Below are positions 14,754 through 62,042 of a stretch of 64,000 nucleotides of DNA, one piece after another. Source of the DNA: an uncultured Rhodocyclaceae bacterium (GTDB lineage Bacteria > Pseudomonadota > Gammaproteobacteria > Burkholderiales > Rhodocyclaceae); assembly GCA_907163075.1 (NCBI GenBank), contig CAJQTY010000002.1:1-64000 (forward strand), in the 5' to 3' direction. Each line of letters opens with the position of its first letter. The stretch's first letter is position 1. Below the pieces are notes generated by a model, which saw only the letters and a program-made list of their open reading frames with translations, ran no database searches and was not told the DNA's origin. The position numbers and the translations under genes were made by a program.

Positions 14754-15184
14754 AGCCCGCGCCGCGCTGGCCGCTGCATCCCGCTCCGAAAGAAGGCGAG
14801 GCGCTGTCCTCATGGCTCAACCGCGTGGCCCTTTGCTATCACATGGAACTGCCCGAGCTGCTGGAGCACGATCTTGGCCACAGCCAGGTCGATGACCTGG
14901 ACACCGCGCCACCACTGTCGCTGCTGGCGATGCTTTCCCAGCGGAGCGGGATCGATCCGGACCGGCTGCGCAGCATGAGTTTCGCCGGCTGGGTGCCTTG
15001 GCTACTGGATAGTCTTGATGACCAGATTCCAGACGCATTGGAAACCTATGCATTTCAGCTCTCGGTACTGCTGCCAAAACTCCACCGTAAGAAGCGATCC
15101 ATCACGAGGTGGCGTGCCTGGCTACCCAGCCAGCCGATAGAGGGTCGGCCGGGATTACGGAAATTTTGGCAGAAAATACTGTAA
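14750..15184 (+). pseudogene. tniQ: TniQ, 3' truncated by transposon insertion
   Basis: The N-terminal ~130 residues of TniQ (family length ~400) read from GTG 14750, overlapping the tniB stop. Typical TniQ sequence (PLHPAPKEGEALSSWLNR) is present. From 15142 the frame enters the terminal repeat of the next transposon and ends at 15184 with non-native residues. The gene is inactivated. Confidence 0.85.
15142..15175 (+). repeat. left terminal inverted repeat of the Tn4651-like element
   Basis: The repeat starts GGGTCGGCCGGGATTACGGA and is identical over 34 bases to the reverse complement of 62009-62042. The tnpA stop lies 18 bases inside. Confidence 0.9.
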
Positions 15185-15193
15185 CCACATGAG

Positions 15194-18166
15194 TCAAAAG
15201 GTAAAAGCAATTCTATAATCTAACGGTTCTGTTGCTCTTTCGAGATTCAGCGGATATTCCCCGAAGCGATTGATGTGCGCACGCCGGTATGGCGCTATAC
15301 CTCGCAGTATTTCCTCCGTCAGCACGTACCCCTTCCCCTGCAACCGTTTCAGAACTTTTGACATGGTGTGGACGTTATGCAGGATCACCATGTTGGCCAC
15401 CAGTTGGTTGTACTTGATCACCTTGCGTTGCTCGTGGCGAATGTTCTCGGCGATGATTCCATCTCCGCCGAAGAACAGCCACTTCACGAAATCGTTGAAC
15501 TCTTCGCTCTTGTTCGTAGCGGCATTGATTGTCTTGCGCAATTCAGCGTCATTTATGTACTTCAGAAGGAACATCGTGCGCACCGCCCTTCCAAGTTCCC
15601 GGAATGCGTAATACAGCCGGTTCTTGCGGCTGGCGGTGCCAAGGCGACGCAGGATGGTAGACGGTGCAATCTTGCCGGCCTTAATGGAAATGACAACGCG
15701 CAACATGTCTTTCAGGTGGCGCGCGATCAGCGACCAGTCGATGTTGCCGCGGAACAAACTGCCGATGTGCTCAAAGTGATCTCCGCGGTCGCCTCGGAAA
15801 AACACCAGATCTTTGATGTTCCGAATTCTGGGCATCAAATTGATGCCCAAGAGATGCGCCAGAGCAAAAACGGGCGTGCTCTGGGCTTGCGTGTCGCCAT
15901 GCAACGTATCTGGTTGAATGTCCGACTGGTTGTAAATCAGCCCGTCCAGGATGTAGACGGCTTCATAAACGCCACATGGGATGAAATGGCTGAACAACGC
16001 AATGTACTTGTCCGACACATGGTAATAGCCAATTCCGCCGTAGCCGCCGTAGCGGATGTGATACTCGGAAAGCAGGTTTTGCTCGAAGACGTTCCATTTC
16101 GTGCCGTCTGCCGAGGCGCTCTTGCCGCTTCCCCAGTACCGCGGCAATGCGAAGCGATTGTAGGCGTTGACCACCTTGACGATGGCCTTGTCCAAACGCT
16201 GCTCGGTGACGTGCTTGAGGTTTAGCCATGCAACCTGCTTTCGACTGAGCCCTTTCACTGAGCGCGCCGTTTGCACCGGCCCGAGGTTGCATCCGTAGCA
16301 AAACAACGTGGTGATGAAACGCTTTCGTGGATCGTCAATCTTGGCTTCAAATCCTGAGAGCGGCCCGAAGAATTTGTGTAGATCCAGCCACTTCTCCGTT
16401 TCCGTCAGGACGTCCAGGATGCTGGCTTCGCTCATTTCCGAGGTAATCGCTTGATCGATCGTATCGATGCCCTCTGGCGGCTTCGGACGCTCCGGACGTC
16501 GGATCACGATACCGGTTTGATCCAAATCGACATAGCCGTTATCCGGGAAGCGCTGGTCGACCAACCGAGCCAGGCTGCGCAGCTGCTCCTTCAGTTCCGC
16601 CACAAAGGCCTCAGGGTCAACAGGCAGGCCCACCATGTCACCATAGGCCTGAATCTCGTTTTCGTACTCGTCCCACGACACCAGGTGGCTGCGATAATCA
16701 TCATATTCGCCGCTGTGTTCCACGTACAGGTCGCCGGACTTCAATTCGTCCATGACCGCGCTGAACACGGCTAGCTCAAAGTATTTACGATGAAAATGTG
16801 GCTCGGAATCGTTCTGCCGCTTGCCGAAGACCAAGCTGTGCCACTTGTCAGGCATCCATTCGAGATTCAGATTCTCGATTCCAGACTCGGCGCACGGCAG
16901 TTGTGCTCGATGGCTTGTTCGGTATTTCCGGATGAACGAAATCGCGTCGAGCAAGCTGCTGTCCTGTGAGCTGGAGCACAAGCTAAGTGCTTCCAGACAT
17001 TTGAAGAGTAAGCTGCGTTTTGAGCCGTAGCTGCTCAACATGAAGGGATAGTAGTTGTTACCGGCGAAGGCCATATGCTCATCGCACTGATTGATCCATC
17101 TTTCGTAGTCCCCGTGCAGGGACTCATCGACACGCGCGAGCTTTTGATCCCCGCTTCCGTCCTCGTTCAGGACGCTCAGCACCTCTCTAAATTGCCCGAT
17201 CAACCGTTCCGTTTGCTCAGCGTGCTGCAGGTGGTACTGGCGCAGCCTTTCGTCGGCCGTATTGTGAAGGTTGCGTAAGGACTTGATGAAGATGTCGGCA
17301 ATGTCGTCCATCGCCTTTTCCAGTTGCGTCTGGATCAGCAGCACCGCCAGTGTGTAACGCTTCAACGGTTTCATGGCGCGCATTTCAGCGAGATCCAAGG
17401 CGCGGGCCTCCAGTGTCATTTGCTCGCGCTTGGTGGCCGCAATCTGCTGAGTGCTCGGCAGTCCTCGCGCCGTTTCCGTGATCTGATCGACGTGCTGAAG
17501 GAAATCAGTCACCTCCCGCACGTTGGGCTGCTTGGGCTCTCGCTTAAGACCATCCCAAATACTGCGCCCTTGTTGCGAAGAAAGTATCGCATCGAGCCGC
17601 TCAATGGCGCCTTTGTCCAACGCGCCGCCAACACTTCTGTATATCTGTTCGTTGACGGTATTTCGGCAGCGGCGTGCCAAGCGAAACAGGATCGTAAACC
17701 CGGGCAACTCGTACTTGCGCTGCACCAGCTCCTCGATCAGAACGTTGATGATGTCGGGCAACTCCTGCTTGGTGCGCGCGGCATGGGTTGCTGCGCTCTC
17801 CAGCCACTTTTCCGCTTTTTGATCGACCAGCTGTAAGCCAAGATATGCGCGCAGGCGTTGATGCTGCAGCGCTCTTGTTCCCGATTGATCGTATTGGGTG
17901 ATCGCCCGCTTCGCCGGCTTGCGTAAATTCGCCTGGCTGCAAATATGCTCGATGATCTCATCGGGCACCGAAGCCAGGGGCACGAAGTAACCGAGCCGCT
18001 GCAGCAGCTTCAGTTTGACCAACATGAAGGTTCTCGGCCCGACCTGGCGGTACAGATTGAAAACGTAATCGATTTCGGCAGATGATGGCGTGTAGACAGC
18101 TGTCAGTTCTTCGAGGCTATATTCTGTCTTCAGGCGCGGATACGCCGTTTCATGGATGGCGGTCAT
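15194..18166 (-). CDS. tnpA: Tn3-family transposase TnpA, Tn4651-like
   Basis: This 990-residue DDE transposase reads toward the left terminal repeat. The N-terminal region (EELTAVYTPSSAEIDYVFNLYRQ) and the C-terminal catalytic domain are typical of the longer Tn3-family transposases. Candidate catalytic residues are Asp in SADGTKWNVF, Asp in VYILDGLIYN and Glu in IRHEQRKVIKYNQ. It is only distantly related to the two Tn21-type TnpAs in this window. The frame is uninterrupted, so the element may still be mobile. Confidence 0.93.
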   Translation of the reverse strand: MTAIHETAYPRLKTEYSLEELTAVYTPSSAEIDYVFNLYRQVGPRTFMLVKLKLLQRLGYFVPLASVPDEIIEHICSQANLRKPAKRAITQYDQSGTRALQHQRLRAYLGLQLVDQKAEKWLESAATHAARTKQELPDIINVLIEELVQRKYELPGFTILFRLARRCRNTVNEQIYRSVGGALDKGAIERLDAILSSQQGRSIWDGLKREPKQPNVREVTDFLQHVDQITETARGLPSTQQIAATKREQMTLEARALDLAEMRAMKPLKRYTLAVLLIQTQLEKAMDDIADIFIKSLRNLHNTADERLRQYHLQHAEQTERLIGQFREVLSVLNEDGSGDQKLARVDESLHGDYERWINQCDEHMAFAGNNYYPFMLSSYGSKRSLLFKCLEALSLCSSSQDSSLLDAISFIRKYRTSHRAQLPCAESGIENLNLEWMPDKWHSLVFGKRQNDSEPHFHRKYFELAVFSAVMDELKSGDLYVEHSGEYDDYRSHLVSWDEYENEIQAYGDMVGLPVDPEAFVAELKEQLRSLARLVDQRFPDNGYVDLDQTGIVIRRPERPKPPEGIDTIDQAITSEMSEASILDVLTETEKWLDLHKFFGPLSGFEAKIDDPRKRFITTLFCYGCNLGPVQTARSVKGLSRKQVAWLNLKHVTEQRLDKAIVKVVNAYNRFALPRYWGSGKSASADGTKWNVFEQNLLSEYHIRYGGYGGIGYYHVSDKYIALFSHFIPCGVYEAVYILDGLIYNQSDIQPDTLHGDTQAQSTPVFALAHLLGINLMPRIRNIKDLVFFRGDRGDHFEHIGSLFRGNIDWSLIARHLKDMLRVVISIKAGKIAPSTILRRLGTASRKNRLYYAFRELGRAVRTMFLLKYINDAELRKTINAATNKSEEFNDFVKWLFFGGDGIIAENIRHEQRKVIKYNQLVANMVILHNVHTMSKVLKRLQGKGYVLTEEILRGIAPYRRAHINRFGEYPLNLERATEPLDYRIAFTF

Positions 18167-18332
18167 GCTGAGCGACCTTCGCCGCTAGGATTCTCTGATC
18201 GTCCTTGTTGTCGCCGGCGCCGGTTCGTTCTCGCCCAGACGCTTGTTCACTGGATCATAAGGACAGGAAGTTATTCGCGTTGCCGCCCAGGTCGCGATGT
18301 CGGTGCCGGAACACCGACATCGAGGACGACGC

Positions 18333-18815
18333 TCAAGCGGCCTTTTTGTTGAACGGTAACTGGAGTTCCTCGACGTCGTACGTAAAATCCAAGGGCATCT
18401 GGATCAGTTTTTGTGTCGGATGCTTGCCGTTATAGACATCAACATCGGTTTTCAACTGGAAGCAGTCGCCGACGATCTGCTGCCGCCGCTGGGAGAAGGA
18501 GCGCACGAAGTGTTCCCGTGGCGCTCGGTCGTCGTCAATATCCGCCCACAGTGACATGTTCTTGTTTCCCTGCTTGGAGCGCACCGCATGCTTGGCTCGG
18601 TATCGCTGGCCGAGCGCATCGGTGCGGTACTCCTCGCGAAGCACCTGCGCGATATCGACTGCAATAACGTCGATCACCGTCTTCAGGCTCGGCTTGTGTA
18701 GTCCGTGGTGGTAGGCCCAGGCAGCCACGGCGTGGGGATCGATCAGGCCGTCGTCGCCGACCTCCGTCTGGTAACGTTCGAGGTAGTCCTTCACTTGATT
18801 GGCGTACGCAGTCAT
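18333..18815 (-). CDS. conserved hypothetical protein downstream of HigA-ImmA
   Basis: A 160-residue soluble protein. A strong GGGGGAG precedes ATG 18815, and the gene starts only 9 bases after the antitoxin stop, so it is the third gene of the higB-higA operon. The N-terminal part (DPHAVAAWAYHHGLHKPSLKTVIDVI) looks helical, with a possible winged-helix character. The C-terminal part is basic (KHAVRSKQGNKNM) and then mixed. I do not recognise the family. Its place in a toxin-antitoxin operon suggests a regulator or helper, which is an inference. Confidence 0.7.
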   Translation of the reverse strand: MTAYANQVKDYLERYQTEVGDDGLIDPHAVAAWAYHHGLHKPSLKTVIDVIAVDIAQVLREEYRTDALGQRYRAKHAVRSKQGNKNMSLWADIDDDRAPREHFVRSFSQRRQQIVGDCFQLKTDVDVYNGKHPTQKLIQMPLDFTYDVEELQLPFNKKAA

Positions 18816-18824
18816 TGCTCCCCC

Positions 18825-19940
18825 TTACTCGGAAAATGAACCCCAACCGTCGGCATCGGCCGACGGCAACACGCAAGCACGCACCTTGACTTGATGCTTG
18901 CGGAGAAAGTCATGCCGTCCCAGCTTGCGCTGAAGCTGTCCTACGACCAATCCAGGATGCACGCTGATGCGCTGGGCGAACAGCAGCACCTTCTGCTCAG
19001 AGAAGTACGGCTGTACTCGTGCGATAAAATTCTCCAACTGGTCCGTCGGCACACAGAAATCCGCCCCGGCGTCGTTGGCCCGGACCTCGCACTCGGGGAG
19101 GCCCTCCCGGTCGTCGCCGATCTCGACGTCGATAATTGGTTCGCCGGTCTTGCCGTCCTCTCGCAACACGTGCTCGATCTCATGGCGCAGCACGAACCAG
19201 AAATTGTCGATGCGATCGAACCGCAGTGCCATGCCAATGACCGGCTTGTCGTCGGCGAGCCAGAAGCACGCACCGTCCAGTTTCGAGCCTGGCATCGGCT
19301 CCACGAAGACCAGCCGGACACCGGCTTCCGCCAGAATGCGCGGCACCTGCCGAGTTTCTTCGGGAGCCAGAATTAAGTTTTTCAGTTGTTCGATGGCAGC
19401 CAATAGCTTGTCACGACTATAAGCCGGGATACGTTGTTGTGCCGCCATACCGCGCACCCGGAACAGCCAAGCGAGCTGCAATGGCGTGGCATCCATGGTT
19501 GCATGGGTCTTCTTGGCGCGATGTAGGAGTTCGGGTTCTTCATCCATCGAGCGGATGCAGAAGAACTCGCAAAAGCGCTGCTCCAGCACGTCGAGATTCT
19601 CGCTCGCACGAATCCAGCCGCGACGCAGCATCTCGCGTACCGGAAACTTGCTGTACAGGCGTGCTTTTCGGACTACATGGTCGTTGGTCACCTTGACTTT
19701 CGAGAGCTGATATTGGCTCTCCAAGGTCATCCAATACTCGGCCGACGTACCAAATGCATCCGCCAGACCACGAGCGGTCTCGGGCGTAATGGCGCGTTTT
19801 CCGGAAATCAGTTCGCTGACTAGACGCGCGGGGCGATCCAGGATGTCTGCAAGTTCCTGCTGGCTCCATTCGCGCGCTTCCAGCTCTTCCCGCAGGAATT
19901 CTCCTGGCGGGAAGACCTCAGCAGGTATACGTGCGTTCAT
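18825..19940 (-). CDS. higA: HigA-type antitoxin fused to ImmA/IrrE metallopeptidase domain
   Basis: Two domains are visible in 371 residues. Residues ~10-80 are an XRE/HigA helix-turn-helix (EWSQQELADILDRPARLVSELI). Residues ~190-280 contain a zinc peptidase site of the ImmA/IrrE family (FVLRHEIEHVLRED, an HExxH motif). GGAGA precedes ATG 19940; the upstream extension of the frame has no such site. The gene follows higB by 13 bases. In ImmA/IrrE systems the peptidase cleaves a repressor, so the fusion could allow self-regulated release of repression; that is an inference. Confidence 0.85.
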   Translation of the reverse strand: MNARIPAEVFPPGEFLREELEAREWSQQELADILDRPARLVSELISGKRAITPETARGLADAFGTSAEYWMTLESQYQLSKVKVTNDHVVRKARLYSKFPVREMLRRGWIRASENLDVLEQRFCEFFCIRSMDEEPELLHRAKKTHATMDATPLQLAWLFRVRGMAAQQRIPAYSRDKLLAAIEQLKNLILAPEETRQVPRILAEAGVRLVFVEPMPGSKLDGACFWLADDKPVIGMALRFDRIDNFWFVLRHEIEHVLREDGKTGEPIIDVEIGDDREGLPECEVRANDAGADFCVPTDQLENFIARVQPYFSEQKVLLFAQRISVHPGLVVGQLQRKLGRHDFLRKHQVKVRACVLPSADADGWGSFSE

Positions 19941-19953
19941 GGTGTCTCCATTC

Positions 19954-20250
19954 CTAGTGATAATCGACAATCTCAACAATCCCGACGACCTTACAGGGAT
20001 GTTCGCCTCGAATCTCCAGGATGAGGCGCCACTGTAAATTCAGCCGGATCGACTGCTGTCCTTCCCGGTCGCCTTTCAACCGTTCAAAGTGCAGTGCTTT
20101 TACCGCGTAAAAATCTCGTTCATCCCGAAAGGCACGAACCTGCTGCATGCGTTTTCGGTAGGCACGCACGACTTCCTGGGAAAACCCGGCGGTGAACTGC
20201 GCATCGGTCTCGAGGCGGTCCAAATCGTCGTCGTCGAATTCAACTTCCAT
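19954..20250 (-). CDS. higB: HigB-like RelE/ParE-superfamily toxin
   Basis: A 98-residue basic protein with the compact RelE/HigB fold pattern. The segments ALHFERLKGDREGQQSIRLN and WRLILEIRGE correspond to the central strands of HigB toxins, which are ribosome-dependent mRNA endonucleases. The first gene of a three-gene operon with higA-immA, it lies beside the tnpA of the large transposon, a common position for toxin-antitoxin modules in Tn3-family elements. The N-terminal acidic run (EFDDDDLDRLETD) is longer than in the smallest HigB proteins. Confidence 0.82.
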   Translation of the reverse strand: MEVEFDDDDLDRLETDAQFTAGFSQEVVRAYRKRMQQVRAFRDERDFYAVKALHFERLKGDREGQQSIRLNLQWRLILEIRGEHPCKVVGIVEIVDYH

Positions 20251-20281
20251 AACAAATTATAGACATATTCTTATTATTTGC

Positions 20282-20318
20282 AAAAGCCATCTTTACACTT
20301 GGTGTAAAGATGGCTTTT
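20282..20318 (-). terminator. perfect 17-bp stem hairpin downstream of the copper operon
   Basis: AAAAGCCATCTTTACAC (20282-20298) pairs perfectly with GTGTAAAGATGGCTTTT (20302-20318) around a three-base loop. A T run on both sides fits a bidirectional terminator. It isolates the leftward copper operon ending at 20401 from higB starting at 20250. Confidence 0.85.
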
Positions 20319-20400
20319 CTGTGATAAACAAATCTCTCACATCATGGTTTCGATTTCTTAATTCTGCAGTTTGGCACCAACGCCCCTCCGCAGAACACGC

Positions 20401-20748
20401 TCATTGGGCTGGTTGAATGTCCGTCACGGTCAATTTTCCGTTTTCCTTGATTACCATAAAGCTGATTTTGTCGCCGGCATTAATCTTGTCCAACATGGAT
20501 GTGTCCTTCACAACAAAAACCATGGTCATGCCGGGCATGTCCATGTGTTTGATTTCGCCATGCTTGATGGTCAGCTTTCCCGCGGCCTTGTCGATCTTTC
20601 GGACTTCTCCTTCGGTCATGCCAGGAGCCGTATTGCCTGCCATCTCCATTCCGTTTTGGTCTGCGGCAGCTTGCGCCAAGACCGGAGCCGAAAGCACGGA
20701 TGAGAGTGCAATAGCGGACGCGACAAGCAAAGAACTACTTGGCTTCAT
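20401..20748 (-). CDS. CusF-like periplasmic copper-binding protein
   Basis: A 115-residue protein with a signal peptide (cut after about residue 25, ..APVLAQA) and one CusF domain. CusF carries Cu(I)/Ag(I) to the CusCBA pump using His, Trp and two Met. Here the motif is HGEIKHMDMPGMTM: the His and the two Met of MTM are kept, but the position of the CusF Trp is Met. It is the last gene of a leftward operon with a cupredoxin, a multicopper oxidase and a TolC-like protein. Confidence 0.85.
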   Translation of the reverse strand: MKPSSSLLVASAIALSSVLSAPVLAQAAADQNGMEMAGNTAPGMTEGEVRKIDKAAGKLTIKHGEIKHMDMPGMTMVFVVKDTSMLDKINAGDKISFMVIKENGKLTVTDIQPAQ

Positions 20749-20825
20749 GATGAATTCCTTGAGAGAGATTCTTGAATCTGAGGTGAAATCCGACAGATGG
20801 ACGGCGTTTAAGATGTTTGATCAGG

Positions 20826-21317
20826 TTATTTTTTGACAACCGTCACTTGGCCTTTCATGCCGGCCTCGTAGTGGCCAGGCATCAGGCAGGCAAAGTGCAC
20901 GGCACCGGGCTCGGTAAACTGCCAGAGGATTTCGCCGTGTTTGCCGGGGTCAAGAGTGATCTTGCTCGGCTCGTCGTGCTCCATTCCGGGGAACTTTTTC
21001 ATCTGTTCCAGGTGTTCTGCAAGTTCGTCCGGGGTACCCAGACTCAATTCATGCCTCACCTTGCCGACATTCTTGACGATGAAGCGGACGGTCTCCCCTT
21101 TCTTGACCTGGATGTCCGACGGGCTGTAGCGCATGTTGTCCGCCATCTCGACCGTAATGGTACGCTTGACCTTGGATGAAATACCGGGTTTGCCGATCGG
21201 CGATTCGTCGTGCCCGCCAGCATGATTGCCGGAAGCGAACGCGGTCGCGGAAGTAGCCAGAAAGGCCGCGATGATTGCGGCGGAACGGGCACACTGAGTG
21301 GGGTTACTAGATTTCAT
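20826..21317 (-). CDS. periplasmic cupredoxin (plastocyanin/azurin-like)
   Basis: A 163-residue secreted blue-copper-type protein. A signal peptide precedes ..AFASGNHAGGHDES. The type 1 copper ligands are visible: His in GKVRHELSLG, then Cys, His and Met in HFACLMPGHYEAGM. ATG 21317 has a GTGAG upstream; an upstream in-frame start would lengthen the signal region implausibly. It lies between the multicopper oxidase and the CusF-like gene and could bind or deliver periplasmic copper. Confidence 0.85.
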   Translation of the reverse strand: MKSSNPTQCARSAAIIAAFLATSATAFASGNHAGGHDESPIGKPGISSKVKRTITVEMADNMRYSPSDIQVKKGETVRFIVKNVGKVRHELSLGTPDELAEHLEQMKKFPGMEHDEPSKITLDPGKHGEILWQFTEPGAVHFACLMPGHYEAGMKGQVTVVKK

Positions 21318-21420
21318 AGGGCTCACTTTCTGATTGCGTTGTTTTGCCGAGAACGGCGGTTGGGAGTGGTACGGCGTCAACGGAGTCATCGGGGCATTGG
21401 CGCGTTAGTTTGTTGCCGAA

Positions 21421-22806
21421 TCAGTGCGACATGCCTTTGCCGCCCGGTTTGACGGCACTGGCCAAGGCCGGTGCCGTTTTGACGCGGCTGGCCGGCCGCT
21501 CGGTTTTTGGCATTACACCATTCCATTCATAAGCCACCGTGCCGGCCGGGAATTTGTACGGCCCCGGGTCGCTGTAATCACCACGCTTCTGGTCATTGCG
21601 CACTTTGAACACACTGAACATGCCACCCATCTCGAGTGGCCCGAACTGACCGGTACCGGTCATCATTGGCGCAGTATTTTCCGGGATCGGCATTTCCATT
21701 TCGCCCATGTCGGCCATGCCGCGTTCGCCCATCAGCATGTAGTCCGGCGCGACTTTCTGAATCTTGCCCACCAGCCCGCGATGATCGACGCCGATCATGG
21801 TCGGTACGTCATGCCCCATGGCATTCATCGTGTGGTGGCTCTTGTGGCAATGCATCGCCCAGTCGCCCTCTTCGTCGGCGATCAGCTCGATCTGCCGCAT
21901 TTGTCCGACGGCCACGTCGGTGGTGACTTCGTACCAGCGCGTGGAGGGGGGCGTCGGACCGCCGTCGGTGCCGGTAACGAGGAATTCGTGGCCGTGCAGG
22001 TGGATCGGGTGATTGGTCATCGTGAGATTGCCGATGCGGATGCGCACGCGGTCGTTCAAGCGCACGTTGAGGCTGTCGATGGCCGGGAAGATGCGGCTGT
22101 TCCAGCACCAGATGTTAAAGTCGGTCATGGTGTTGATCTTCGGCGTCCTGCTGCCGGGCTCGACATCGAAGGCGTTAAGCAGGAAGCAGAAATCGCGGTC
22201 GACGTCGGCGATGTGCGGATGCTTCGCCTTCGGATGAGTGACCCAGAAACCCATCATACCCATAGCCATCTGCACCATTTCATCGGCGTGCGGATGGTAC
22301 ATGAAGGTGCCGGGGCGGCGCGCTTCGAACTCGTAGACGAAGGTCTTGCCGGCGGGAATCTGCGGCTGGGTCAGCCCGCCAACGCCGTCCATGCCGTTGG
22401 GCAGGCGCTGGCCGTGCCAGTGAACGGAGGTGTGCTCGGGCAGCTTATTGGTCACAAAGATGCGCACGCGGTCGCCTTCAACGACTTCGATGGTCGGGCC
22501 GGGGCTTTGCCCGTTGTAACCCCACATATTGACCATAAAGCCGGGCGCCACTTCGCGCACCACGGGCTCGGCCACCAAGTGGAATTCCTTGACGCCGTTG
22601 TTCATGCGCCAAGGCAGTGTCCAGCCGTTTACAGTCACCACCGGGTTGTAGGGACGTCCGGTACTAGGGATCAAGGGCGGGGCAGTTTCCACCGAAGTCT
22701 GGATAACAGGCTCAGGCATGCCGGCCAAGGCTGAACGAGCGACCGTCAAACCCGCCATAGAGGCGGCGGCGCTGGTGAGAAACTTCCTGCGTGAATTGAG
22801 ATTCAT
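21421..22806 (-). CDS. multicopper oxidase (CopA/CueO-like), Tat-exported
   Basis: A 461-residue multicopper oxidase, expected to oxidise Cu(I) in the periplasm. A twin-arginine signal (SRRKFLTSAA) lies at residues ~5-14. All four copper motifs are present: HWHG (129-132), HPH (171-173), HPIHLHGH (266-273) and HCHKSHH (319-325). A Met-rich stretch follows (MGERGMADMGEMEMP, ~355-370), typical of cuprous oxidases. ATG 22806 places the twin-arginine close to the N-terminus. It is the second gene of the four-gene copper operon. Confidence 0.9.
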   Translation of the reverse strand: MNLNSRRKFLTSAAASMAGLTVARSALAGMPEPVIQTSVETAPPLIPSTGRPYNPVVTVNGWTLPWRMNNGVKEFHLVAEPVVREVAPGFMVNMWGYNGQSPGPTIEVVEGDRVRIFVTNKLPEHTSVHWHGQRLPNGMDGVGGLTQPQIPAGKTFVYEFEARRPGTFMYHPHADEMVQMAMGMMGFWVTHPKAKHPHIADVDRDFCFLLNAFDVEPGSRTPKINTMTDFNIWCWNSRIFPAIDSLNVRLNDRVRIRIGNLTMTNHPIHLHGHEFLVTGTDGGPTPPSTRWYEVTTDVAVGQMRQIELIADEEGDWAMHCHKSHHTMNAMGHDVPTMIGVDHRGLVGKIQKVAPDYMLMGERGMADMGEMEMPIPENTAPMMTGTGQFGPLEMGGMFSVFKVRNDQKRGDYSDPGPYKFPAGTVAYEWNGVMPKTERPASRVKTAPALASAVKPGGKGMSH

Positions 22807-22817
22807 CCTGGCTCCTG

Positions 22818-23927
22818 TCAATGTCCAGCGGGAGTTGCTGATTCACCGCCGCCGTCCAGCGATACAAAATTCTCGGGTTCTCCGCCGAGCAATACCCATT
22901 GCAGATCGGCGTCAGCGAGCCAGAAGTCGCGTTGAGCCCTGATCGCATCGATGGCCGCCTGTGACTGATTGCGCGATTCGTCAAGTAGATCCCAGACGCT
23001 CGCCAACATTCCGTTGTAGTGCAGCACCGTCTCTTCGCCGATGAATTCGCGCACCTTCAGCACGTCATTGCGTGCAATCGTGACCAACTCGTGGGTCAAC
23101 TGATAGGCCGCCAGGGCCCGCTCCATGTTGGCGCGGTTATGCCGAGCTTCGGCGCTCGGCAGTTGCGCCTGTGTCGCAGACGCCCGCTGTTGCCACGCAA
23201 GTGGTGGCACTAGTTGCTCTGGGACGTCGGGCAGGCTATCGGGTAGCAGCAGATGGCTATATTGGTCCTTGAGTTTGAGCAGATCGATCAACTCGAACTG
23301 CGCCTGATTCGCGGTGTATTGGGCACGGATCAGATTTGTTCGCGCCAAAGATTGCGTTAGCTGCACCTGTGTCTGCTTAAGCTTGCTCCAATTACCGGTC
23401 TGTACCATGCGCTGACCGAGGTTACTGGCCGCGTCAGCCGCGTCCAGCGCAGCGCGAAAGTGCGCCACTTCCTGGCGTGCAGAAGTGGCACGTAGCCAAG
23501 CCTTTCTGGCTTGCACGGCGACCTCGAGTATTTCGTCCAGCTCCTCGACACGGCGGCGCACGGCGGGATCAATTTCAGTCCATCGGCCAGTTTCGAGGCG
23601 GTCAACATTCGCCGCACCCAAGATCGATAACTGGTTCGCAAGATCAAAATGGGTTCGCCAAACCTGGCGCGTCAGCGCTTCAAGCGTATTCAGGGCGAGT
23701 CCGCGGGCCGCAGGCTGACTGTCGCCGCCTTCGGGAGACCGATTGGCCGCTTCCCATTTCAGGACATCAACATGGCCGCGTCGATACGCGCCAACGGTCT
23801 CATTGGCACCTCGCCAATCGGGAGCAGTGTCAACCGAAGCGGTTTGTGCCGTTACAACGACTGGGCTGAGCGCCAGGCTGAAGACGACTGCCTTCCAGGC
23901 GATCATCGAGTTGTGTTGGCGTGTCAC
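22818..23927 (-). CDS. TolC-family outer membrane protein of the copper operon
   Basis: A ~369-residue protein with a signal peptide (VVFSLALSPVVVTAQT) and long amphipathic helices with heptad-like Ala/Leu/Gln patterns, as in outer membrane factors. GTG 23927 follows GAGGGGGG by a short spacer; ATG 23906 is an alternative start. It is shorter than usual TolC proteins (~420-480), so it may be a divergent member. It is the first gene of the operon with the multicopper oxidase, cupredoxin and CusF-like protein, and a CusR-type box lies 82 bases upstream. Confidence 0.75.
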   Translation of the reverse strand: MTRQHNSMIAWKAVVFSLALSPVVVTAQTASVDTAPDWRGANETVGAYRRGHVDVLKWEAANRSPEGGDSQPAARGLALNTLEALTRQVWRTHFDLANQLSILGAANVDRLETGRWTEIDPAVRRRVEELDEILEVAVQARKAWLRATSARQEVAHFRAALDAADAASNLGQRMVQTGNWSKLKQTQVQLTQSLARTNLIRAQYTANQAQFELIDLLKLKDQYSHLLLPDSLPDVPEQLVPPLAWQQRASATQAQLPSAEARHNRANMERALAAYQLTHELVTIARNDVLKVREFIGEETVLHYNGMLASVWDLLDESRNQSQAAIDAIRAQRDFWLADADLQWVLLGGEPENFVSLDGGGESATPAGH

Positions 23928-52206: not shown

Positions 52207-52237
52207 TTGACTCTATAGTGACTATAGAGATTTTAAT
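52207..52237 (+). promoter_or_regulatory. MerR-type promoter/operator of cadA
   Basis: TTGACT (52207-52212) is followed by the dyad CTCTATAG-TGA-CTATAGAG (52211-52229) and a -10-like TTTAAT at about 52232-52237, spaced 19 bases. The long spacing and central dyad are the hallmark of MerR-family operators. Confidence 0.85.
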
Positions 52238-52270
52238 GGAGGCTGAATAGAAGATTTTCAGGAGTTACTC

Positions 52271-54676: not shown

Positions 54677-55752
54677 GCTGGAAATTCTTTCTCTACGACT
54701 GGGGTGGTCTGAACATCGCGTTGTTCCAAGCCATCAACATGAGCACACCTGCAGCGCTGGAACCGCTGGCATCGTTCTTCAACCTTGTGATAGGCAACTA
54801 CTGGACTGCACCACTGATGCTCTTGGCGATGTGGGGATGGTCAAAGTCGGCACCTGACCCAACGCGGGCCGATGCCATCCGGTACAGACTCAGAGTCTTT
54901 AGCGTGGCCTTTGCGTTGGCATTTCTCGTCGCCACCATCTTGAAGCTATGGATCGACTTTCCACGCCCGCCTGCCGTTTTTGGCGACATGGTGCGCGTTA
55001 TCGGGGGCATCGAACGACACTACAGCCTGCCCAGCGGGCATGCCACCTATGCCGCGCTGGTGGTCGGCGCGCTCTGGCCTTTGATAGGCCGTCGTGGCCG
55101 CATCGGCTTGGTGTTGTACGCCGCATTGGTCGGTTGGTCACGCATCGCAGCCGGAATGCACTTTCCTGCCGATGTGCTGGCGGGGTGGGTACTTGGATTG
55201 AGTTGCACGGCGCTCGCCGGGTGGCTGATGCCGCTGGCCGTCCCTGTGTGGCAATCGGCTCGCCGCACATCGACTTGGGTCTGGTTCGCAGTGGCCGCCA
55301 GTGCTGTCATGACCGATCAGCTCGCAAAGTTCGCCATCACCCGCACGTTTGCCTACGGTGAACAGGTCGAAGTCACGCCCTTCTTCAACTTCGTCCATGT
55401 CCTGAATCCCGGCGCGGCATTCAGCTTTCTGGCGAACGCTGGCGGCTGGCAACGTTACTTTTTCATCACGCTGGGCCTGGTCGTGTCTGCTTGGCTGGGA
55501 CGCATGCTGTGCCAGCAATTGCCCCGTCTCGAAGCGATGGGATACAGCCTGATCCTCGGCGGTGCGCTGGGCAATGTCGCGGATCGTGTGCTGCGTGGAC
55601 AGGTTGTTGATTTCCTTGACTTCCATTGGCGACTTGCGCACTGGCCCGCCTTCAACCTCGCTGATGTGGCGATAACTATCGGAGCGCTCTGCCTGTTCTT
55701 GACGGTTGTACCGAAAAGCAGTAAAGGCACAGAGGCCGAGGTGTCCGGTTAA
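54673..55752 (+). CDS. PAP2 phosphatase fused to lipoprotein signal peptidase (PbrB/PbrC fusion)
   Basis: A 359-residue membrane protein with two catalytic parts. Residues ~1-190 form a PAP2 phosphatase (KLWIDFPRPP, YSLPSGHATY, SRIAAGMHFPADV). Residues ~195-350 form signal peptidase II (MTDQLAKFAI, VLNPGAAFSF, GALGNVADR, VVDFLDFHW with the two catalytic Asp). Fusions of this kind are known in lead-resistance operons, where phosphate released by PAP2 is thought to trap exported Pb(II). Its ATG overlaps the cadA stop. Confidence 0.9.
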   Translation: MSWKFFLYDWGGLNIALFQAINMSTPAALEPLASFFNLVIGNYWTAPLMLLAMWGWSKSAPDPTRADAIRYRLRVFSVAFALAFLVATILKLWIDFPRPPAVFGDMVRVIGGIERHYSLPSGHATYAALVVGALWPLIGRRGRIGLVLYAALVGWSRIAAGMHFPADVLAGWVLGLSCTALAGWLMPLAVPVWQSARRTSTWVWFAVAASAVMTDQLAKFAITRTFAYGEQVEVTPFFNFVHVLNPGAAFSFLANAGGWQRYFFITLGLVVSAWLGRMLCQQLPRLEAMGYSLILGGALGNVADRVLRGQVVDFLDFHWRLAHWPAFNLADVAITIGALCLFLTVVPKSSKGTEAEVSG

Positions 55753-55881
55753 GCTATACCCTAACCTGATGTCAGATGCTTGGCGCAAAGCACGTCAGAA
55801 TAGAGTTGTAGTTTGTATTTATTGACACAAGCCGCCAAGGGTAATAGATTTCATCCTGACACTTTTACCTTTGGAGGCACC
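55753..55881. promoter_or_regulatory. probable res site of the nested transposon
   Basis: The 129-bp gap between the resistance operon and tnpR has the position and length of the Tn21 res site. AT-rich imperfect repeats with TGTCAGA/CGTCAGAAT elements (55770-55805) are visible. Subsite borders are not assigned. Confidence 0.6.
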
Positions 55882-56439
55882 TTGCAAGGTCAACGCATTG
55901 GCTATATCCGCGTCAGCAGCTTCGACCAGAACCCTGATCGGCAACTGGAGCAAATCGAAGTCGGTAAGGTATTCACCGATAAGGCTTCCGGCAAGGACAC
56001 GCAACGTCCCGAACTTGAAAGGCTGCTGGCCTTTGTGCGCGAGGGCGACACCGTGGTGGTGCACAGCATGGACAGGTTGGCACGCAATCTCGATGACCTG
56101 CGCCGCATCGTTCAGGGGCTGACACAACGGGGCGTGCGGATGGAGTTTGTCAAAGAAGGGCTGGCTTTCACCGGCGATGACTCACCGATGGCCAATTTGA
56201 TGCTGTCGGTCATGGGGGCTTTTGCGGAGTTCGAGCGCGCACTGATCCGCGAACGCCAGCGCGAGGGAATCGTGCTGGCCAAGCAGCGCGGTGCCTACCG
56301 GGGAAGAAAGAAATCGCTGAACAGCGAACAAATTGCCAAGTTGAAACAGCGAGTCGCGGCAGGCGATCAAAAAACCTTGGTGGCCCGTGACTTCGGCATC
56401 AGTCGCGAAACCTTGTACCAGTACCTGCGGGAAGACTGA
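55882..56439 (+). CDS. tnpR: serine resolvase TnpR, Tn21 type
   Basis: A 185-residue resolvase nearly collinear with Tn21 TnpR. The catalytic Ser is in [29 protein letters not shown] and a C-terminal helix-turn-helix ([14 protein letters not shown]) follow. The start is TTG 55882, with GGAGG 6 bases upstream, which gives the family length; a longer upstream frame would extend into res. It resolves cointegrates made by the adjacent TnpA. Confidence 0.92.
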
Positions 56440-56441
56440 TC

Positions 56442-59411
56442 ATGCCGCGCCGCTCAATCCTGTCCGCCACCGAGCGCGAAAGCCTGCTTGCACTACCAGA
56501 TGCCAAAGACGAACTGATACGGCACTACACGTTCAACGAAACCGACCTATCGGTGATCCGCCAGCGTCGCGGCGCTGCGAATCGATTGGGCTTCGCCGTG
56601 CAGCTTTGCTACTTGCGATTCCCTGGCATCTTCTTGGGCATCGATGAGCCTCCGTTTCCGCCCCTGTTGCGCATGGTGGCCGCACAACTCAAGGTGCCGG
56701 TGGAAAGTTGGAACGATTACGGCCAGCGCGAGCAGACGCGGCGGGAGCACTTGGTCGAGCTGCAAACGGTGTTCGGGTTCAAGCCCTTCACCATGAGTCA
56801 CTACCGGCAAGCCGTGCATACATTGACCGAGCTGGCCTTGCAGACCGATAAAGGGATTGTGCTGGCCAGCACCCTTGTCGAAAACCTGCGGCGGCAGAGC
56901 ATCATCCTGCCCGCCATGAATGCCATCGAGCGCGCGAGCGCCGAGGCCATCACCCGTGCCAACCGGCGTATTTACGCGGCGTTGACCGATTCTTTGTTAT
57001 CGCTCCACCGTCAGCGCCTGGACGAACTTCTCAAGCGCAAGGACGGCAGCAAATTGACGTGGCTGGCATGGCTGCGCCAGTCGCCCGTCAAGCCGAACTC
57101 TCGGCATATGCTTGAACACATCGAGCGCCTCAAGGCTTGGCAGGCGCTTGACCTTCCCGCAGGCATCGAGCGACAAGTTCACCAGAACCGCCTGCTCAAG
57201 ATCGCCCGTGAGGGTGGGCAGATGACGCCTGCCGATCTGGCAAAGTTCGAGATGCAACGACGCTATGCCACTCTGGTTTCGCTGGCCATTGAAGGCATGG
57301 CCACCGTCACCGACGAAATCATCGACCTGCACGACCGCATCATTGGCAAACTATTCAACGCCGCCAAGAACAAGCATCAGCAGCAGTTTCAGGCTTCCGG
57401 CAAGGCGATCAATGACAAGGTGCGGATGTATGGCCGCATCGGCCAAGCCTTACTGGAAGCCAAACAGAGCGGCGGCGATCCGTTCGCCGCCATCGAGGCC
57501 GTAATGCCGTGGGATACCTTCGCCGCCAGCGTCACGGAGGCGCAAAAGCTCGCGCAGCCGGAGAGCTTCGACTTTCTGCATCGCATCGGTGAAAGCTACG
57601 CCACGTTGCGCCGCTACGCGCCGCAGTTCCTGGACGTACTTAAGTTACGGGCGGCACCAGCCGCCAAGGGCGTACTCGATGCCATCGAGGTGCTTCGCGG
57701 CATGAACAGCGACAACGCCCGCAAGGTGCCCGCCGACGCGCCGACCGCATTCATCAAGCCACGCTGGGCGAAACTGGTGCTCACGGACGATGGCATTGAC
57801 CGGCGCTACTACGAGCTGTGCACCTTGTCAGAGCTAAAGAACGCGCTGCGATCAGGCGATGTCTGGGTGCAGGGTTCGCGCCAGTTCAAGGATTTTGATG
57901 AGTACCTGGTGCCGGCCGAGAAGTTCGCTACTCTGAAGCTGGCCAACGAATTGTCGCTGGCAGTGGCCACCGATTGCGATCAGTATTTGCACGACCGACT
58001 GGCATTGCTGGAACAGCAGCTTGCCACCGTCAACCGCATGGCGGCGGCCAATGATCTGCCGGATGCCATCATTACCGAGTCCGGCCTGAAGATCACGCCG
58101 CTGGACGCGGCGGTGCCGGAGACCGCACAAGCCCTAATCGACCAGTCGGCGATGCTGCTGCCACACGTCAAGATTACCGAACTGCTGATGGAAGTTGATG
58201 AGTGGACAGGCTTCACCCGGCATTTCACGCATCTGAAGACCGGCGACACGGCCAAGGACAAAACCTTGTTGCTGACGACGATCCTGGCTGATGGCATCAA
58301 TCTCGGGCTAACCAAGATGGCCGAGTCCTGCCCAGGCACGACTTACGCCAAGCTGTCGTGGCTGCAAGCCTGGCACATCCGGGATGAAACGTACTCAACG
58401 GCGCTGGCCGAACTGGTCAACGCGCAGTTCCGGCAATCCTTTGCCGGAAACTGGGGCGATGGCACCACGTCATCGTCGGATGGCCAAAATTTCAGAACCG
58501 GCAGCAAAGCGGAGAGCACCGGGCATATCAACCCGAAGTATGGAAGCAGTCCAGGCCGGACGTTTTATACCCATATCTCCGACCAGTACGCGCCCTTCAG
58601 CACCAAGGTAGTCAACGTCGGCGTGCGTGATTCAACCTATGTGCTCGATGGCCTGCTGTACCACGAGTCGGACTTGCGGATCGAGGAGCACTACACCGAC
58701 ACAGCGGGCTTTACCGATCATGTCTTCGGCCTGATGCACCTACTGGGCTTCCGATTCGCGCCACGTATCCGAGACCTGGGCGACACCAAGCTATTCATCC
58801 CAAAGGGCGATGCCGCCTATGACGCGCTCAAGCCGATGATTAGCAGCGACCGGCTGAACATCAAGCAGATACGCGCCCATTGGGATGAAATCTTGCGGTT
58901 CGCCTCTTCGATCAAGCAGGGTACGGTGACGGCCTCGCTGATGTTGCGCAAGCTCGGCAGCTATCCGCGTCAGAACGGACTGGCCGTTGCACTGCGCGAG
59001 CTGGGGCGCATTGAGCGCACGCTGTTCATACTGGATTGGCTGCAAAGCGTGGAGCTGCGCCGCCGCGTGCAGGCCGGACTCAACAAAGGCGAGGCGCGCA
59101 ACGCGCTGGCCAGGGCGGTGTTCTTCAACCGACTGGGCGAAATCCGCGACCGCAGTTTTGAGCAACAACGCTACCGGGCCAGCGGCCTCAATCTGGTAAC
59201 GGCGGCCATCGTGCTTTGGAACACGGCCTATCTGGAACGGGCAACCAATGCTTTGAACGGGCACGGCAAACCGGTAGACGAGACGCTGTTTCAATACCTG
59301 TCACCGCTGGGGTGGGAACACATCAATCTGACCGGCGATTACCTCTGGCGCAGCAGCACCAAGGTCGGCGCAGGCAAGTTCAGACCGTTGCGACCACTGC
59401 CACCGGCTTAA
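56442..59411 (+). CDS. tnpA: Tn3-family transposase TnpA, Tn21 subgroup
   Basis: A 989-residue intact transposase, starting three bases after tnpR. The N-terminus ([20 protein letters not shown]) and C-terminus ([14 protein letters not shown]) are those of Tn21-type enzymes. Candidate catalytic residues are Asp in [12 protein letters not shown], Asp in [12 protein letters not shown] and Glu in [12 protein letters not shown]. The stop lies inside or at the edge of the right repeat. Together with TnpR and both repeats it makes a probably active transposon. Confidence 0.95.
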
Positions 59412-59444
59412 CGTGCTTTATTTTCCGTTTTCTGAGACGACCCC
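59407..59444 (-). repeat. right terminal inverted repeat of the nested transposon
   Basis: Read inward it starts GGGGTCGTCTCAGAAAACGG and ends GCACGTTAAG. It differs from the left repeat at two positions. TATGA follows at 59445-59449. Confidence 0.93.
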
Positions 59445-59526
59445 TATGAACGCCCTCGAAGGCGATCAGCGTATGCACTTCTTTCAGGATGATTTGGTGG
59501 GAGCATGATGGATCCGAGGCTGAGCA

Positions 59527-60663
59527 TCACTTTCCGGTAGTCTGAGCATGCCGCTGATCATCTTCTGCATGGAGGTAGATTGCAGTGGTTTCGATCGAGG
59601 CGTGCCGCAAGTTTTTCTGGATGAAACGGATGTCGTTGCCGGCATCCGCTTGGTGGGTCGCTGCGGTGTGTCGCAGCCAATGAGTTGACGCACGGCGAAG
59701 GGTAACCGCCTTACCAGGATCGGTCGCTTCCAATCGATCAGCGGCACGCCGAAAGACTTCTTTTACGATCAAGTAAATCGCTGTAGAGGTCAGGAATCGA
59801 TCAGTTCGGCCGGTAACACTCATAACGAGAGGTGTTTCCTCCGGTGCTACCGGTACCGCAGACAGTCCGTAGAATCGCCGATAACGTGCAAAATCGTCCA
59901 TCAGCTCATCACTGATGGGTACGTCGCCCACAGCATTACCTTTGCCAATAACGCGCAACCACCATTTTCCGCGCCGTAGTTCCAGGTCACCCGATTTGGC
60001 TTGAGCAACCTCGGAAGCGCGCAATGCGGCCCCGTAAATCAAACGAAACAGCCAACGCACTCGCTCGTAGTGTTGCCTCTCCCTTGCTGAGTCCTGCGGC
60101 ATGGTATCAATGTAGTCGAGCACAGATTGCCACAGTGCGTGATCTAGGTAGCGCTCGACCGCTGACCGGCGACTGCTTTTCGATTCACTTCTACGGCGAC
60201 GCAAAGCGAGCGGGTTACCTGCGAGATAGCCCGCCGCAACGAGATACCCGAACAATCCGGACAGAATCCCCATGGCCTGGCGCACGCTGCGTGGGGAGAG
60301 GGGACCATCCAGGAGACGCCGACGACCACCTCGGCGCGGAAGGGTTGGATCAATCCAATCTCCCGAAGGATTGGCCAAGAAGGATTCGTAAACAAGCAAG
60401 TCCTCACGGTTGAGGCTGGATAAAGCCTTTCCCAAACCTTGGGTCGCCCAGACTATCAGTCGTACAGCCTCTTTTCGGTAATTGCGCAAGGTATGCGGCG
60501 AACCGGCATATTCGGCTAGCCATAGTCGTAACGCATCCACGTCAGTATTCGCTGCAGTCTGCCGAACACCGCCCAGTGCACGGTTCGAACCATGACTACC
60601 GTTGAGTGTCGGTGGCAGGGTGAAATCTGGAAAAGAGTCAGAGGCGGTCACCCAATTTGACAA
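59527..60663 (-). CDS. tnpS: tyrosine recombinase, TnpS-like cointegrate resolvase
   Basis: A 378-residue site-specific recombinase. An N-terminal SAM-like domain is followed by the catalytic domain. The active residues are visible: Arg in YGAALRASEVAQ, His-x-x-Arg in THWLRHTAATHQ, His in RHASIETTAIY, and the nucleophile Tyr in the same segment. In Tn4651-type transposons TnpS resolves cointegrates together with TnpT at the rst site. Here it is divergent from a TnpT-like gene, close to the right repeat, which fits that role. Confidence 0.85.
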   Translation of the reverse strand: MSNWVTASDSFPDFTLPPTLNGSHGSNRALGGVRQTAANTDVDALRLWLAEYAGSPHTLRNYRKEAVRLIVWATQGLGKALSSLNREDLLVYESFLANPSGDWIDPTLPRRGGRRRLLDGPLSPRSVRQAMGILSGLFGYLVAAGYLAGNPLALRRRRSESKSSRRSAVERYLDHALWQSVLDYIDTMPQDSARERQHYERVRWLFRLIYGAALRASEVAQAKSGDLELRRGKWWLRVIGKGNAVGDVPISDELMDDFARYRRFYGLSAVPVAPEETPLVMSVTGRTDRFLTSTAIYLIVKEVFRRAADRLEATDPGKAVTLRRASTHWLRHTAATHQADAGNDIRFIQKNLRHASIETTAIYLHAEDDQRHAQTTGK

Positions 60664-60840
60664 GACATTGCCTCCAGTGATTTTAAGAATGGCTTTTGGC
60701 AGCGTACATCAGAATTGATTACGATTATCGGTGTTATCGTAAATTTATAGCTATAATAGTTACATGCGTAACGTTATATAATAATATATTGTAAAGGATA
60801 CGTCAAAATCCGGTCTGCCATGCCACTTTCGAAGGAGTTC
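60664..60840. promoter_or_regulatory. probable rst resolution site between tnpS and tnpT
   Basis: The AT-rich region holds two perfect inverted repeats: TTACGAT/ATCGTAA (60719-60725 and 60736-60742) and GTTAC-ATGC-GTAAC (60759-60772). Tyrosine recombinase core sites have such facing arms. Its position between divergent tnpS and tnpT matches the rst site of Tn4651. Confidence 0.65.
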
Positions 60841-60844
60841 GTCT

Positions 60845-61876
60845 ATGAGTCGCGTCAGCGATACCCGCCTGCGCACACGAGAAGCCGCCGCACAGTTGGT
60901 GAGCACCGGCCGCCGTTCACATGATCTGACCGTCGACCTGATCTACGCCGAAATCAAGCAAGGTAGCCGTACGACGATCAACGACGAACTGAAGCTCTGG
61001 AAGGATGAGCAAGCCAAGGCCAATGCCCTGACAGCGGCGTTACCGCCAGCGGTGGCCAGCGCCATGTTGAATATGTGGGCGTTGGCGGTGGAACACGGTG
61101 AAAAAGCGTTCGATCTGCGTCTGGAAGAGGTCGAAACCCATCTGGCGAAGGCTACGACGAGTGTTGAAAGCCTGGGGGCCGAAAAATGCGGACTCCTTCA
61201 ACAAAACGAAAGCTTGCAAGCAGAGATCGCCCGGGGCCAATCCGAGCTCGCCGCGGTGCGGGAACTGCTTACCGCTGAGCATGTGGCCAAGGAGAACGCC
61301 ACTTCCAGAGTCGATGCGCTGGAGCAACAACTCGAATCGGTCAAAACCGACGCTGCGCAAGCCATATCGATCGTGAAAGCAGAGCACCGGCTACGTGTCC
61401 AGGAGCTACAGGCGGCCCTTGCCACCCAAGAGAGTTCGTTTCGACAAGAAATTGACAAAGCGACCGAGCGGTTGGAAGGTGTGCAGAAGCATGTCATGCT
61501 TCAGGTCACAGAAGCCCGTGAAGCTCAGAAACGAGCGGAGACGCTCCTTTCAAAAACCAACCAGAAGAATGAGCAGCTATCGGCCGAGGTGCAACAACTC
61601 GGGCGGCAGATCGCATCGATATCCCAGACGTCTGAGCGGGCTCAAGCTGACCTGGCTCAGACGCAGGGCGTAATAGACAAGCTCCGGTCGGAGCGCGAGT
61701 CTCTCGTCCAGCAGGTAGCCACAGCTGCCGGCAAGCTGGGAGTTCTGGAACAGCAGGTCGAATCACTTGAGCGCAGAGCGGTTGGGGCGGAAACTAGACT
61801 TGAAACGGCATTGAAGCGACCGGCAGCGGAGAAGAGGAAGAGCGGAAAGCATCACGGGGACTTGATTGGCGAGTAA
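60845..61876 (+). CDS. tnpT: TnpT-like coiled-coil DNA-binding protein (KfrA-type N-terminus)
   Basis: A 343-residue protein. Residues ~1-90 are a KfrA-like DNA-binding domain (TREAAAQLVSTGRRSHDLTVDLIYAEI ... TINDELKLWKDE). Residues ~95-325 are one long predicted coiled coil rich in Glu, Gln, Ala and Leu. The tail is basic (RPAAEKRKSGKHHGD). TnpT proteins help TnpS resolve cointegrates of Tn4651-type elements. GAAGGAG precedes ATG 60845. The name rests on context and domain layout. Confidence 0.8.
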   Translation: MSRVSDTRLRTREAAAQLVSTGRRSHDLTVDLIYAEIKQGSRTTINDELKLWKDEQAKANALTAALPPAVASAMLNMWALAVEHGEKAFDLRLEEVETHLAKATTSVESLGAEKCGLLQQNESLQAEIARGQSELAAVRELLTAEHVAKENATSRVDALEQQLESVKTDAAQAISIVKAEHRLRVQELQAALATQESSFRQEIDKATERLEGVQKHVMLQVTEAREAQKRAETLLSKTNQKNEQLSAEVQQLGRQIASISQTSERAQADLAQTQGVIDKLRSERESLVQQVATAAGKLGVLEQQVESLERRAVGAETRLETALKRPAAEKRKSGKHHGDLIGE

Positions 61877-62008
61877 GTCCTACTATTATCGGCATGGGGC
61901 TGGACCAGAGTTGTCCAAATTTACGAGAAAGAGGTGCGATTTGCCGGCTAATCAAATTCGCCGAGCTGTCTTTTTCGTTTTTTATTGCAATTCAATACCT
62001 TAATCCCG

Positions 62009-62042
62009 TTTCTGCCAAAATTTCCGTAATCCCGGCCGACCC
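62009..62042 (-). repeat. right terminal inverted repeat of the Tn4651-like element
   Basis: Perfect 34-base inverse match to 15142-15175. HoxH coding sequence begins at once on the outer side, in frame from 62042-62044. Confidence 0.9.

Follow-up and report, generated by a model that had tools for sequence, protein, structure and literature searches.

The first 64,000 nucleotides of contig CAJQTY010000002.1 from an uncultured Rhodocyclaceae bacterium (assembly GCA_907163075.1; this whole stretch is referred to here as the window) contain a large transposon with a Tn3-family transposase gene (tnpA) at its left end and, at its right end, a divergent pair of genes for a tyrosine recombinase (tnpS) and a KfrA_N/coiled-coil helper (tnpT). 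Between them lie a HigB/HigA toxin-antitoxin pair, a copper island and a nested lead/cadmium transposon (Table 1). The original prediction, made from the sequence alone, had described a single element that has tnpA at one end, a tnpS/tnpT-like pair with a candidate rst site at the other and a copper island between, with all transposition genes open. This description stands, and the element belongs to the Tn3 family. We consider it probable that the whole is a single replicative transposon whose resolution unit has been swapped, whose cargo comprises the copper genes, HigBA and the nested element, and whose mismatched flanks arose through deletion of adjacent DNA. The window opens a contig of 750,941 bp in a 5.2-Mb genome assembled into four contigs and 98% complete.

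Table 1 Features of the transposon and its flanks in the window
Feature	Position	Strand	Description and evidence
Left flank, tniA'-tniB-tniQ'	12767..15139	+	tniQ cut at the inverted repeat (IR); 98.0% identical to R751; PF09299, PF05621, PF06527
Whole outer transposon	15140..62044	.	46,905 bp; 36-bp perfect IRs and limits of flank homology
Left terminal IR	15140..15175	+	36 bp; GAGGG terminus, common to relatives
tnpA, Tn3-family DDE transposase	15194..18166	-	990 aa, open; 3' end faces left IR; PF01526 (E=2.4e-146); NF033527
160-aa protein beside tnpA	18333..18815	-	No Pfam/NCBIfam match at E<=0.001; function not assigned
HigA-type antitoxin	18825..19979	-	TIGR02607 above cut-off; PF01381; weak sub-cut-off PF06114 (M78/IrrE-like) in C-terminal part
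HigB-type toxin, type II pair	19954..20250	-	PF05015 (E=1.2e-7)
Copper island	~20401-51687		31.3 kb
CusF-like protein, cupredoxin, multicopper oxidase, outer-membrane efflux protein	20401..23954	-	Pfam
copR-type response regulator, CusS sensor kinase	24894..27160	+	PF00072/PF00486, PF21085
DUF411 protein, cusCBA efflux	27338..34332	+	CusB with CusF domain
Methyl-accepting chemotaxis protein, ABC1-type kinase	34418..37833	+	PF00015, PF03109
P-type metal ATPase	38217..40643	-	YHS and HMBD domains
GGDEF protein	41959..43182	+	PF00990
Two copK around dsbD	43293..46117	-	PF11525 x2, PF02683
Methyltransferase-like protein, HD-domain protein, dsbA, dsbC, small unnamed open reading frames (ORFs)	46683..51687	+	HD_5
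Nested lead/cadmium Tn3-family transposon	51700..59444	.	7,745 bp; 41-bp IRs, 95%; duplication TATGA on both sides
Nested cargo: MerR-type regulator, P-type ATPase, PAP2-LspA fusion	51745..55752	.	
Nested tnpR (serine resolvase), tnpA	55813..59411	+	PF00239, PF01526; TnpA 989 aa
tnpS, tyrosine recombinase	59527..60663	-	378 aa, TTG start, open; PF00589; not Tn4651-type
Candidate rst core	60719..60742	+	TTACGATTAT-CGGTG-TTATCGTAA, imperfect dyad; between tnpS and tnpT
tnpT, KfrA_N/coiled-coil helper	60845..61876	+	343 aa, open; PF11740
Right terminal IR	62009..62044	-	36 bp
Right flank, NiFe hydrogenase large subunit (hoxH)	62045..63445	+	Without ~30 N-terminal codons

Ends and boundaries of the element

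The perfect 34-bp IRs predicted at 15142-15175 (+) and 62009-62042 (-) are present at those places and bound a single element, but its true ends lie 2 bp further out on each side, where all 36/36 bases of the repeats match. We place GAGGG ends at 15140 and 62044 because three boundary tests concur: ends of relatives with related transposases open with GAGGG or a close variant, and the bases beyond them are unrelated; homology to the tni module of plasmid R751 halts exactly at 15139; and homology to the hydrogenase cluster begins at 62044/62045 in each of three same-genus genomes (75-80% identical). A perfect 36-bp inverted pair would be expected about 5e-13 times in 64 kb of random DNA, and the repeats have no other copy in the genome with up to three mismatches allowed. 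The ends of relatives share GAGGG..CGGCCGG, and in four compared elements they pair at 37-43 of 46 bases; Tn3-family terminal IRs are typically 38-40 bp or longer, with related ends, in the available passages of PMC7157771.

The 2-bp shift matters for reading target duplications: with the boundary at 15142/62042 the bases GA would be taken as flank and the duplications of relatives misread. At GAGGG, six of the eight elements with both flanks readable show a perfect 5-bp duplication (AAATG in G317, TCAAG in G318, GAATG in G319, TGTAT in G322, CAACT in G323 and AAGTA in Cupriavidus metallidurans; G and L numbers are our own identifiers), the other two being the Cupriavidus taiwanensis element and the window copy. 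This count left out G316, whose contig ends at the repeats, and G315, whose second end was not found; a Duganella pair (G321) had been dropped beforehand with both repeats on one strand. An exact 29-nt end pattern gave no matches in the genome-contig collection, the ends differing between relatives, and in megablast searches no plasmid record covered >=80% of either element half. The best match to the left query spanned 17% of it, in the copper genes, and the best match to the right query spanned 35%, namely the nested element.

Transposase and its Burkholderiales clade

TnpA is a Tn3-family DDE transposase of the usual ~1000-aa size, with both PF01526 and NF033527 above cut-off and residues D687, D758 and E888 unchanged across 32 aligned transposases. 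A search with it gave 13 loci, three of them partial. Among the ten full-length transposases, two from Herbaspirillum are 87% and 85% identical, and eight more, at 71-76%, come from Keguizhuia, Undibacterium, Massilia, Duganella, two Noviherbaspirillum, and metagenome-assembled genomes of Comamonas and Burkholderiales. Identity is 73% to a Janthinobacterium plasmid transposase and 57-59% to those of Cupriavidus. In a quick tree, TnpA and the two Herbaspirillum rows form one group within a clade of 12 rows, each node with SH-aLRT 100, on the Tn4651 side against two Tn21-type rows, the sole other subgroup references included; it is 35% identical to the Tn4651 transposase vs 26% to that of the nested element. 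Across 15140-21000, DNA homology to the compared relatives does not extend past the end repeat and tnpA (15140-18168), the exception being a 105-bp match to the CusF gene of G318. The genome holds one tnpA of this type (E<=1e-100).

A putative resolution unit of another family

tnpS and tnpT are transcribed divergently around a conserved core, the layout of Tn4651-type resolution, and R215, K241, H328, R331, H354 and Y363 of TnpS are unchanged in nine aligned rows of its family. The two proteins match a C. taiwanensis pair (TnpS 66%, TnpT 50% over residues 1-298), and other relatives occur in Paraburkholderia, Caballeronia, Polaromonas, Rhodanobacter and Cupriavidus basilensis. We derived the core from an alignment of spacers, an inverted-repeat search in single spacers having given no consistent dyad; the pattern TTnCGATTAT-N5-TTATCrTAA is present in 7/7 aligned spacers of the near family, in 0/8 Tn4651-type spacers and once in the window.

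The original prediction had called the element and its tnpA Tn4651-like and the pair at the other end tnpS/tnpT-like. The term Tn4651-like applies only loosely to TnpA, and the orientation of tnpA is opposite, inward in Tn4651 and outward in the window; the TnpS/TnpT pair is not that of Tn4651. Tn4651 TnpS and TnpT gave no phmmer match to the window proteins at E<=1. Against eight Tn4651-type sequences the identity of TnpS is 12-16% and the hhalign probability 0.6%, the common ground being only the broad PF00589 superfamily, and TnpT matches Tn4651-type TnpT at 97.8% hhalign probability and 16-21% identity solely over the 124 N-terminal columns of KfrA_N. It is thus improbable that the element is an ordinary Tn4651-type transposon with no module replacement. 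Tn4651 itself (pWW0, NC_003350, 27224-83279; 56,056 bp) does resemble it in layout, with a Tn3-family TnpA at one end, a divergent recombinase/KfrA_N helper pair near the other and dozens of kb of cargo between; TnpA identity of 35%, the shared KfrA_N domain of TnpT and the shared PF00589 domain of TnpS also speak for that alternative. However, besides the distance between the recombinases, the spacer core is different, tnpA has the opposite orientation, and relatives with 72-85% identical TnpA carry a real Tn4651-type pair. Tn4651 also has unrelated ends (a 43-bp match with an AGGGGT... terminus) and cargo for toluene/xylene catabolism.

All seven relatives whose resolution type could be read (G315, G316, G317, G318, G319, G322 and G323) carry Tn4651-type TnpS/TnpT; in phmmer they score 184-423 bits against the TnpS of Tn4651 and 52-177 bits against its TnpT. 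A Tn4651-type TnpS occurs somewhere in 11 of 12 relative genomes (E<=1e-20); with the same query the window's own genome gave none at E<=1e-10, and it has a single TnpS of the window type (E<=1e-10). Window-type TnpS is found in 4/12 relative genomes (E<=1e-40), where it is 34-47% identical and does not share a contig with tnpA, except in G321, in which the two lie ~33 kb apart. On these comparisons it looks as though the whole tnpS-rst-tnpT unit was exchanged in the window element, the other clade members of readable type being Tn4651-type. Available passages of PMC7157771 list TnpR, TnpI and TnpS+TnpT as the known resolvase types and describe exchange between transposons at res sites for TnpR elements.

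The differing nearest relatives of TnpA and of TnpS/TnpT, together with the lack of a target duplication, would also fit a chimera in which a left part of Oxalobacteraceae type and a right part of Cupriavidus/Paraburkholderia type, with related ends, are not mobile as a unit. We regard this as quite unlikely: the two window ends are 36/36 identical, above the 30-35 of 36 seen in seven comparison elements, as expected for a pair used jointly.

Several observations weigh against an exchange of the resolution unit, or limit what it explains. Our survey took in 11 near relatives (the ten above and Janthinobacterium), and the resolution count leaves out L059, L065, L066 and L033 (Janthinobacterium); L059 has the closest TnpA (87%), and its contig ends there, leaving its resolution type not readable. 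In an eighth spacer, from Polaromonas, the right arm of the core is kept and just 15/19 arm bases match, and neither the C. metallidurans pair, which is more distant, nor a second C. taiwanensis pair has a match to the pattern. The nearest relatives of the resolution module are only ~66% identical in DNA, too far for a date to be put on the swap, and the search revealed no donor junction. Finally, the distant Cupriavidus relatives of TnpA (57-59%) already differ in recombinase type; exchange is therefore not peculiar to the window element.

Exchange of resolution units between such elements may thus be common. We see the case as evenly balanced for a broader proposal, namely that heteromeric TnpS/TnpT resolvases form two far-diverged families with a core site of their own, that Tn4651-like transposons swap the whole unit at its position near the end opposite tnpA, and that the window element is a captured case in a transposase clade whose other members of readable type all have the other family. 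Among literature titles and abstract openings, none concerned this element or a TnpS/TnpT swap, which is not proof of absence.

Further occurrences of the pair were recorded in passing. On Rhodanobacter plasmids (L074, L075), window-type tnpS/tnpT lie ~1.3 kb from a gene for a multicopper oxidase with a copper-resistance annotation, and in R. thiooxydans two tnpT-like genes stand side by side as a tandem. Distant TnpS relatives are common on plasmids, with 1541 positive records among 72,556 (E<=1e-20); Klebsiella accounts for 579 of these, and just 10 of these records have their best place at 60-80% identity to the window TnpS. A tnpT remnant in Alicycliphilus (L149) was rejected as a right-end marker, homology halting just past tnpT with no end repeat.

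Mismatched flanks and the missing target duplication

At 15140/62044 the window copy has no target duplication (flanking bases CGATA/AAAGT). To the left lies a truncated tni module, which we take to be Tn402-type. To the right lies a hydrogenase gene whose counterpart in G195 encodes 493 aa, homology stopping 89 bp before its start; the ORFs upstream of that counterpart are likewise gone from the window. The hydrogenase occurs in 3/28 same-genus genomes at 80-85% protein identity. Given different broken genes to left and right and no duplication, the copy is not a plain insertion, and its flanks are not the two sides of a single target site; the predicted ability of the island to move is a fair reading of its open genes, but this copy does not have the form of a simple product of such a move.

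The missing halves were sought in the genome. The 3,272-bp G195 region upstream of the breakpoint gave just a 52-bp match on another contig, PF00374 has no further copy elsewhere, and the sole other TniQ match, on contig C1, is accompanied by no match there to R751 DNA. The remainder of tniQ (828 bp of R751) had no match in a search run without a positive control, and the incomplete genome limits the search for lost halves, both of which count against reading the flanks as a deletion. Since neither missing part was found, the copy is either a recombinant or one that has lost DNA from its flanks. DNA beside the element appears lost, and we judge a deletion adjoining a replicative transposon most likely. 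In a 2024 paper (PMC11708052) whose abstract opens with IS copies that lack duplications, the term 'adjacent deletion' occurs 20 times.

Doubtful by comparison is an origin by recombination, in which a copy of the element in the tni module and another at the hydrogenase locus would have recombined, for example through plasmid integration and then loss of the other product. The left flank is mobile DNA (the tni module and Tn3-family remnants) and the right a hydrogenase cluster shared with same-genus genomes, so the two could stem from different replicons; however, the genome has a single copy of the ends, tnpA and tnpS, in addition to the failure to find either missing half.

In the proposed history that includes the deletion, TnpA would act on the two identical 36-bp ends to give a cointegrate and a 5-bp target duplication, and TnpS, aided by TnpT, would resolve it at the rst core that separates their genes. 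The transposase and its ends belong to the Burkholderiales clade, whose other members of readable type use Tn4651-type TnpS/TnpT, and the tnpS-rst-tnpT unit would have been replaced by one of the far-diverged family with closest kin in Cupriavidus, Paraburkholderia, Caballeronia and Polaromonas. The cargo consists of the copper island, HigBA and the lead/cadmium transposon, a later and independent insertion, and an intramolecular (deletion-forming) replicative transposition would have removed DNA on one side, leaving mismatched flanks and no duplication.

Such a history illustrates how a large metal-resistance transposon may be assembled from a transposase with its ends, a resolution unit and cargo, each with a separate past. 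Exact GAGGG 36-bp ends for this transposase clade allow further elements to be delimited and their duplications read. The window element would be a clean case for asking whether a transposase can work with a cointegrate resolution system foreign to it, and we offer the putative second type of heteromeric resolvase as a candidate for assay.

Related elements

A related element is that of Undibacterium sp. TS12 (G318, 43,717 bp), with the same end type, a 75% identical TnpA and tnpS/tnpT at the far end. It has in common with the window the multicopper oxidase (74%), cupredoxin, CusF, cusAB, P-type ATPase and methyltransferase genes and retains the order CusF-cupredoxin-oxidase-outer-membrane protein; it differs in its Tn4651-type TnpS/TnpT, and the chemotaxis, GGDEF, HD, CopK and HigBA proteins of the window have no match in it at E<=1e-10. 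In Herbaspirillum sp. RV1423 (G315/L060; TnpA 85%), copper regulator genes likewise lie inward of tnpA, but a Tn4651-type TnpS/TnpT pair lies ~10 kb inward of tnpA, and the other end was not found.

Two Cupriavidus elements share the end type with more distant transposases (TnpA 59% in each). The plasmid element of C. taiwanensis SWF66294 (NZ_CP016951, 12,846 bp; L034 10289-23134) has the same rst core, but its tnpS, tnpT and tnpA are grouped at one end and no annotated copper genes lie within its mapped ends. It combines a close TnpS/TnpT with two mapped ends and, like the window copy, lacks a duplication, although two cases may be chance. The C. metallidurans BS1 p1 element (L035 with L147; 26,331 bp) has a 49% identical TnpS, a KfrA_N gene and metal efflux cargo, and differs in a RelE/ParE-type pair between its KfrA_N and recombinase genes.

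Copper island, HigBA and nested transposon

About 31 kb of copper cargo had been predicted, and the island is indeed of that size, but the element also carries HigBA and, nested within it, an independent lead/cadmium transposon complete with tnpR and tnpA. Close relatives of the window copper genes occur in 4/10 compared elements or loci (G318, G315, G319 and Janthinobacterium, with G315 and Janthinobacterium mapped at the tnpA end only), all four with the same end type. Other RND metal pumps, at 33-36% identity, are found in three (G317, G322 and C. metallidurans), and the remaining three have none (G316, C. taiwanensis) or just a remote P-type ATPase (G323, 24%). Members of the clade thus often carry copper or other metal-efflux genes (7/10 compared).

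Within the island, the P-type ATPase is presumably CopF-like, and the copK genes lie in 300-bp direct repeats, 90% identical (43246-46082), on either side of dsbD. The HigB/HigA pair sits between tnpA and the island and gave no match at E<=1e-8 in a scan of 31 loci; toxin-antitoxin pairs are reported in Tn3-family modules, the Tn4651 subgroup included, in the available passages of PMC7157771.

The nested transposon is a recent, independent insertion. Over its length it is 97-99% identical to the 40 best plasmid records among the matches listed (Citrobacter, Klebsiella and E. coli), with weaker matches at 80-90% in at least 4281 of at least 5000 records. Its identification as Tn5718 was rejected, the available part of PMC7765201 treating Tn5718 as an element with a Tn5053-kind tni module.

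DNA to the left of the tni module

Positions 1-12772 seem to comprise a second Tn3-family element. A tandem duplication lies at 9904-12551, with ~1.37 kb spacing and blocks 78-97% identical; a Pfam search at E<=0.01 that covered the larger ORF in either copy gave no match. Part of a tnpA cut by the contig end (7-2087) is 78-82% identical to the nested tnpA, and an end repeat (12732-12772) abuts the truncated tniA. The second element also has a HepT-like gene and a serine resolvase gene; in the available passages of PMC7157771, TnSod9 carries a HEPN/MNT pair between tnpR and tnpA.

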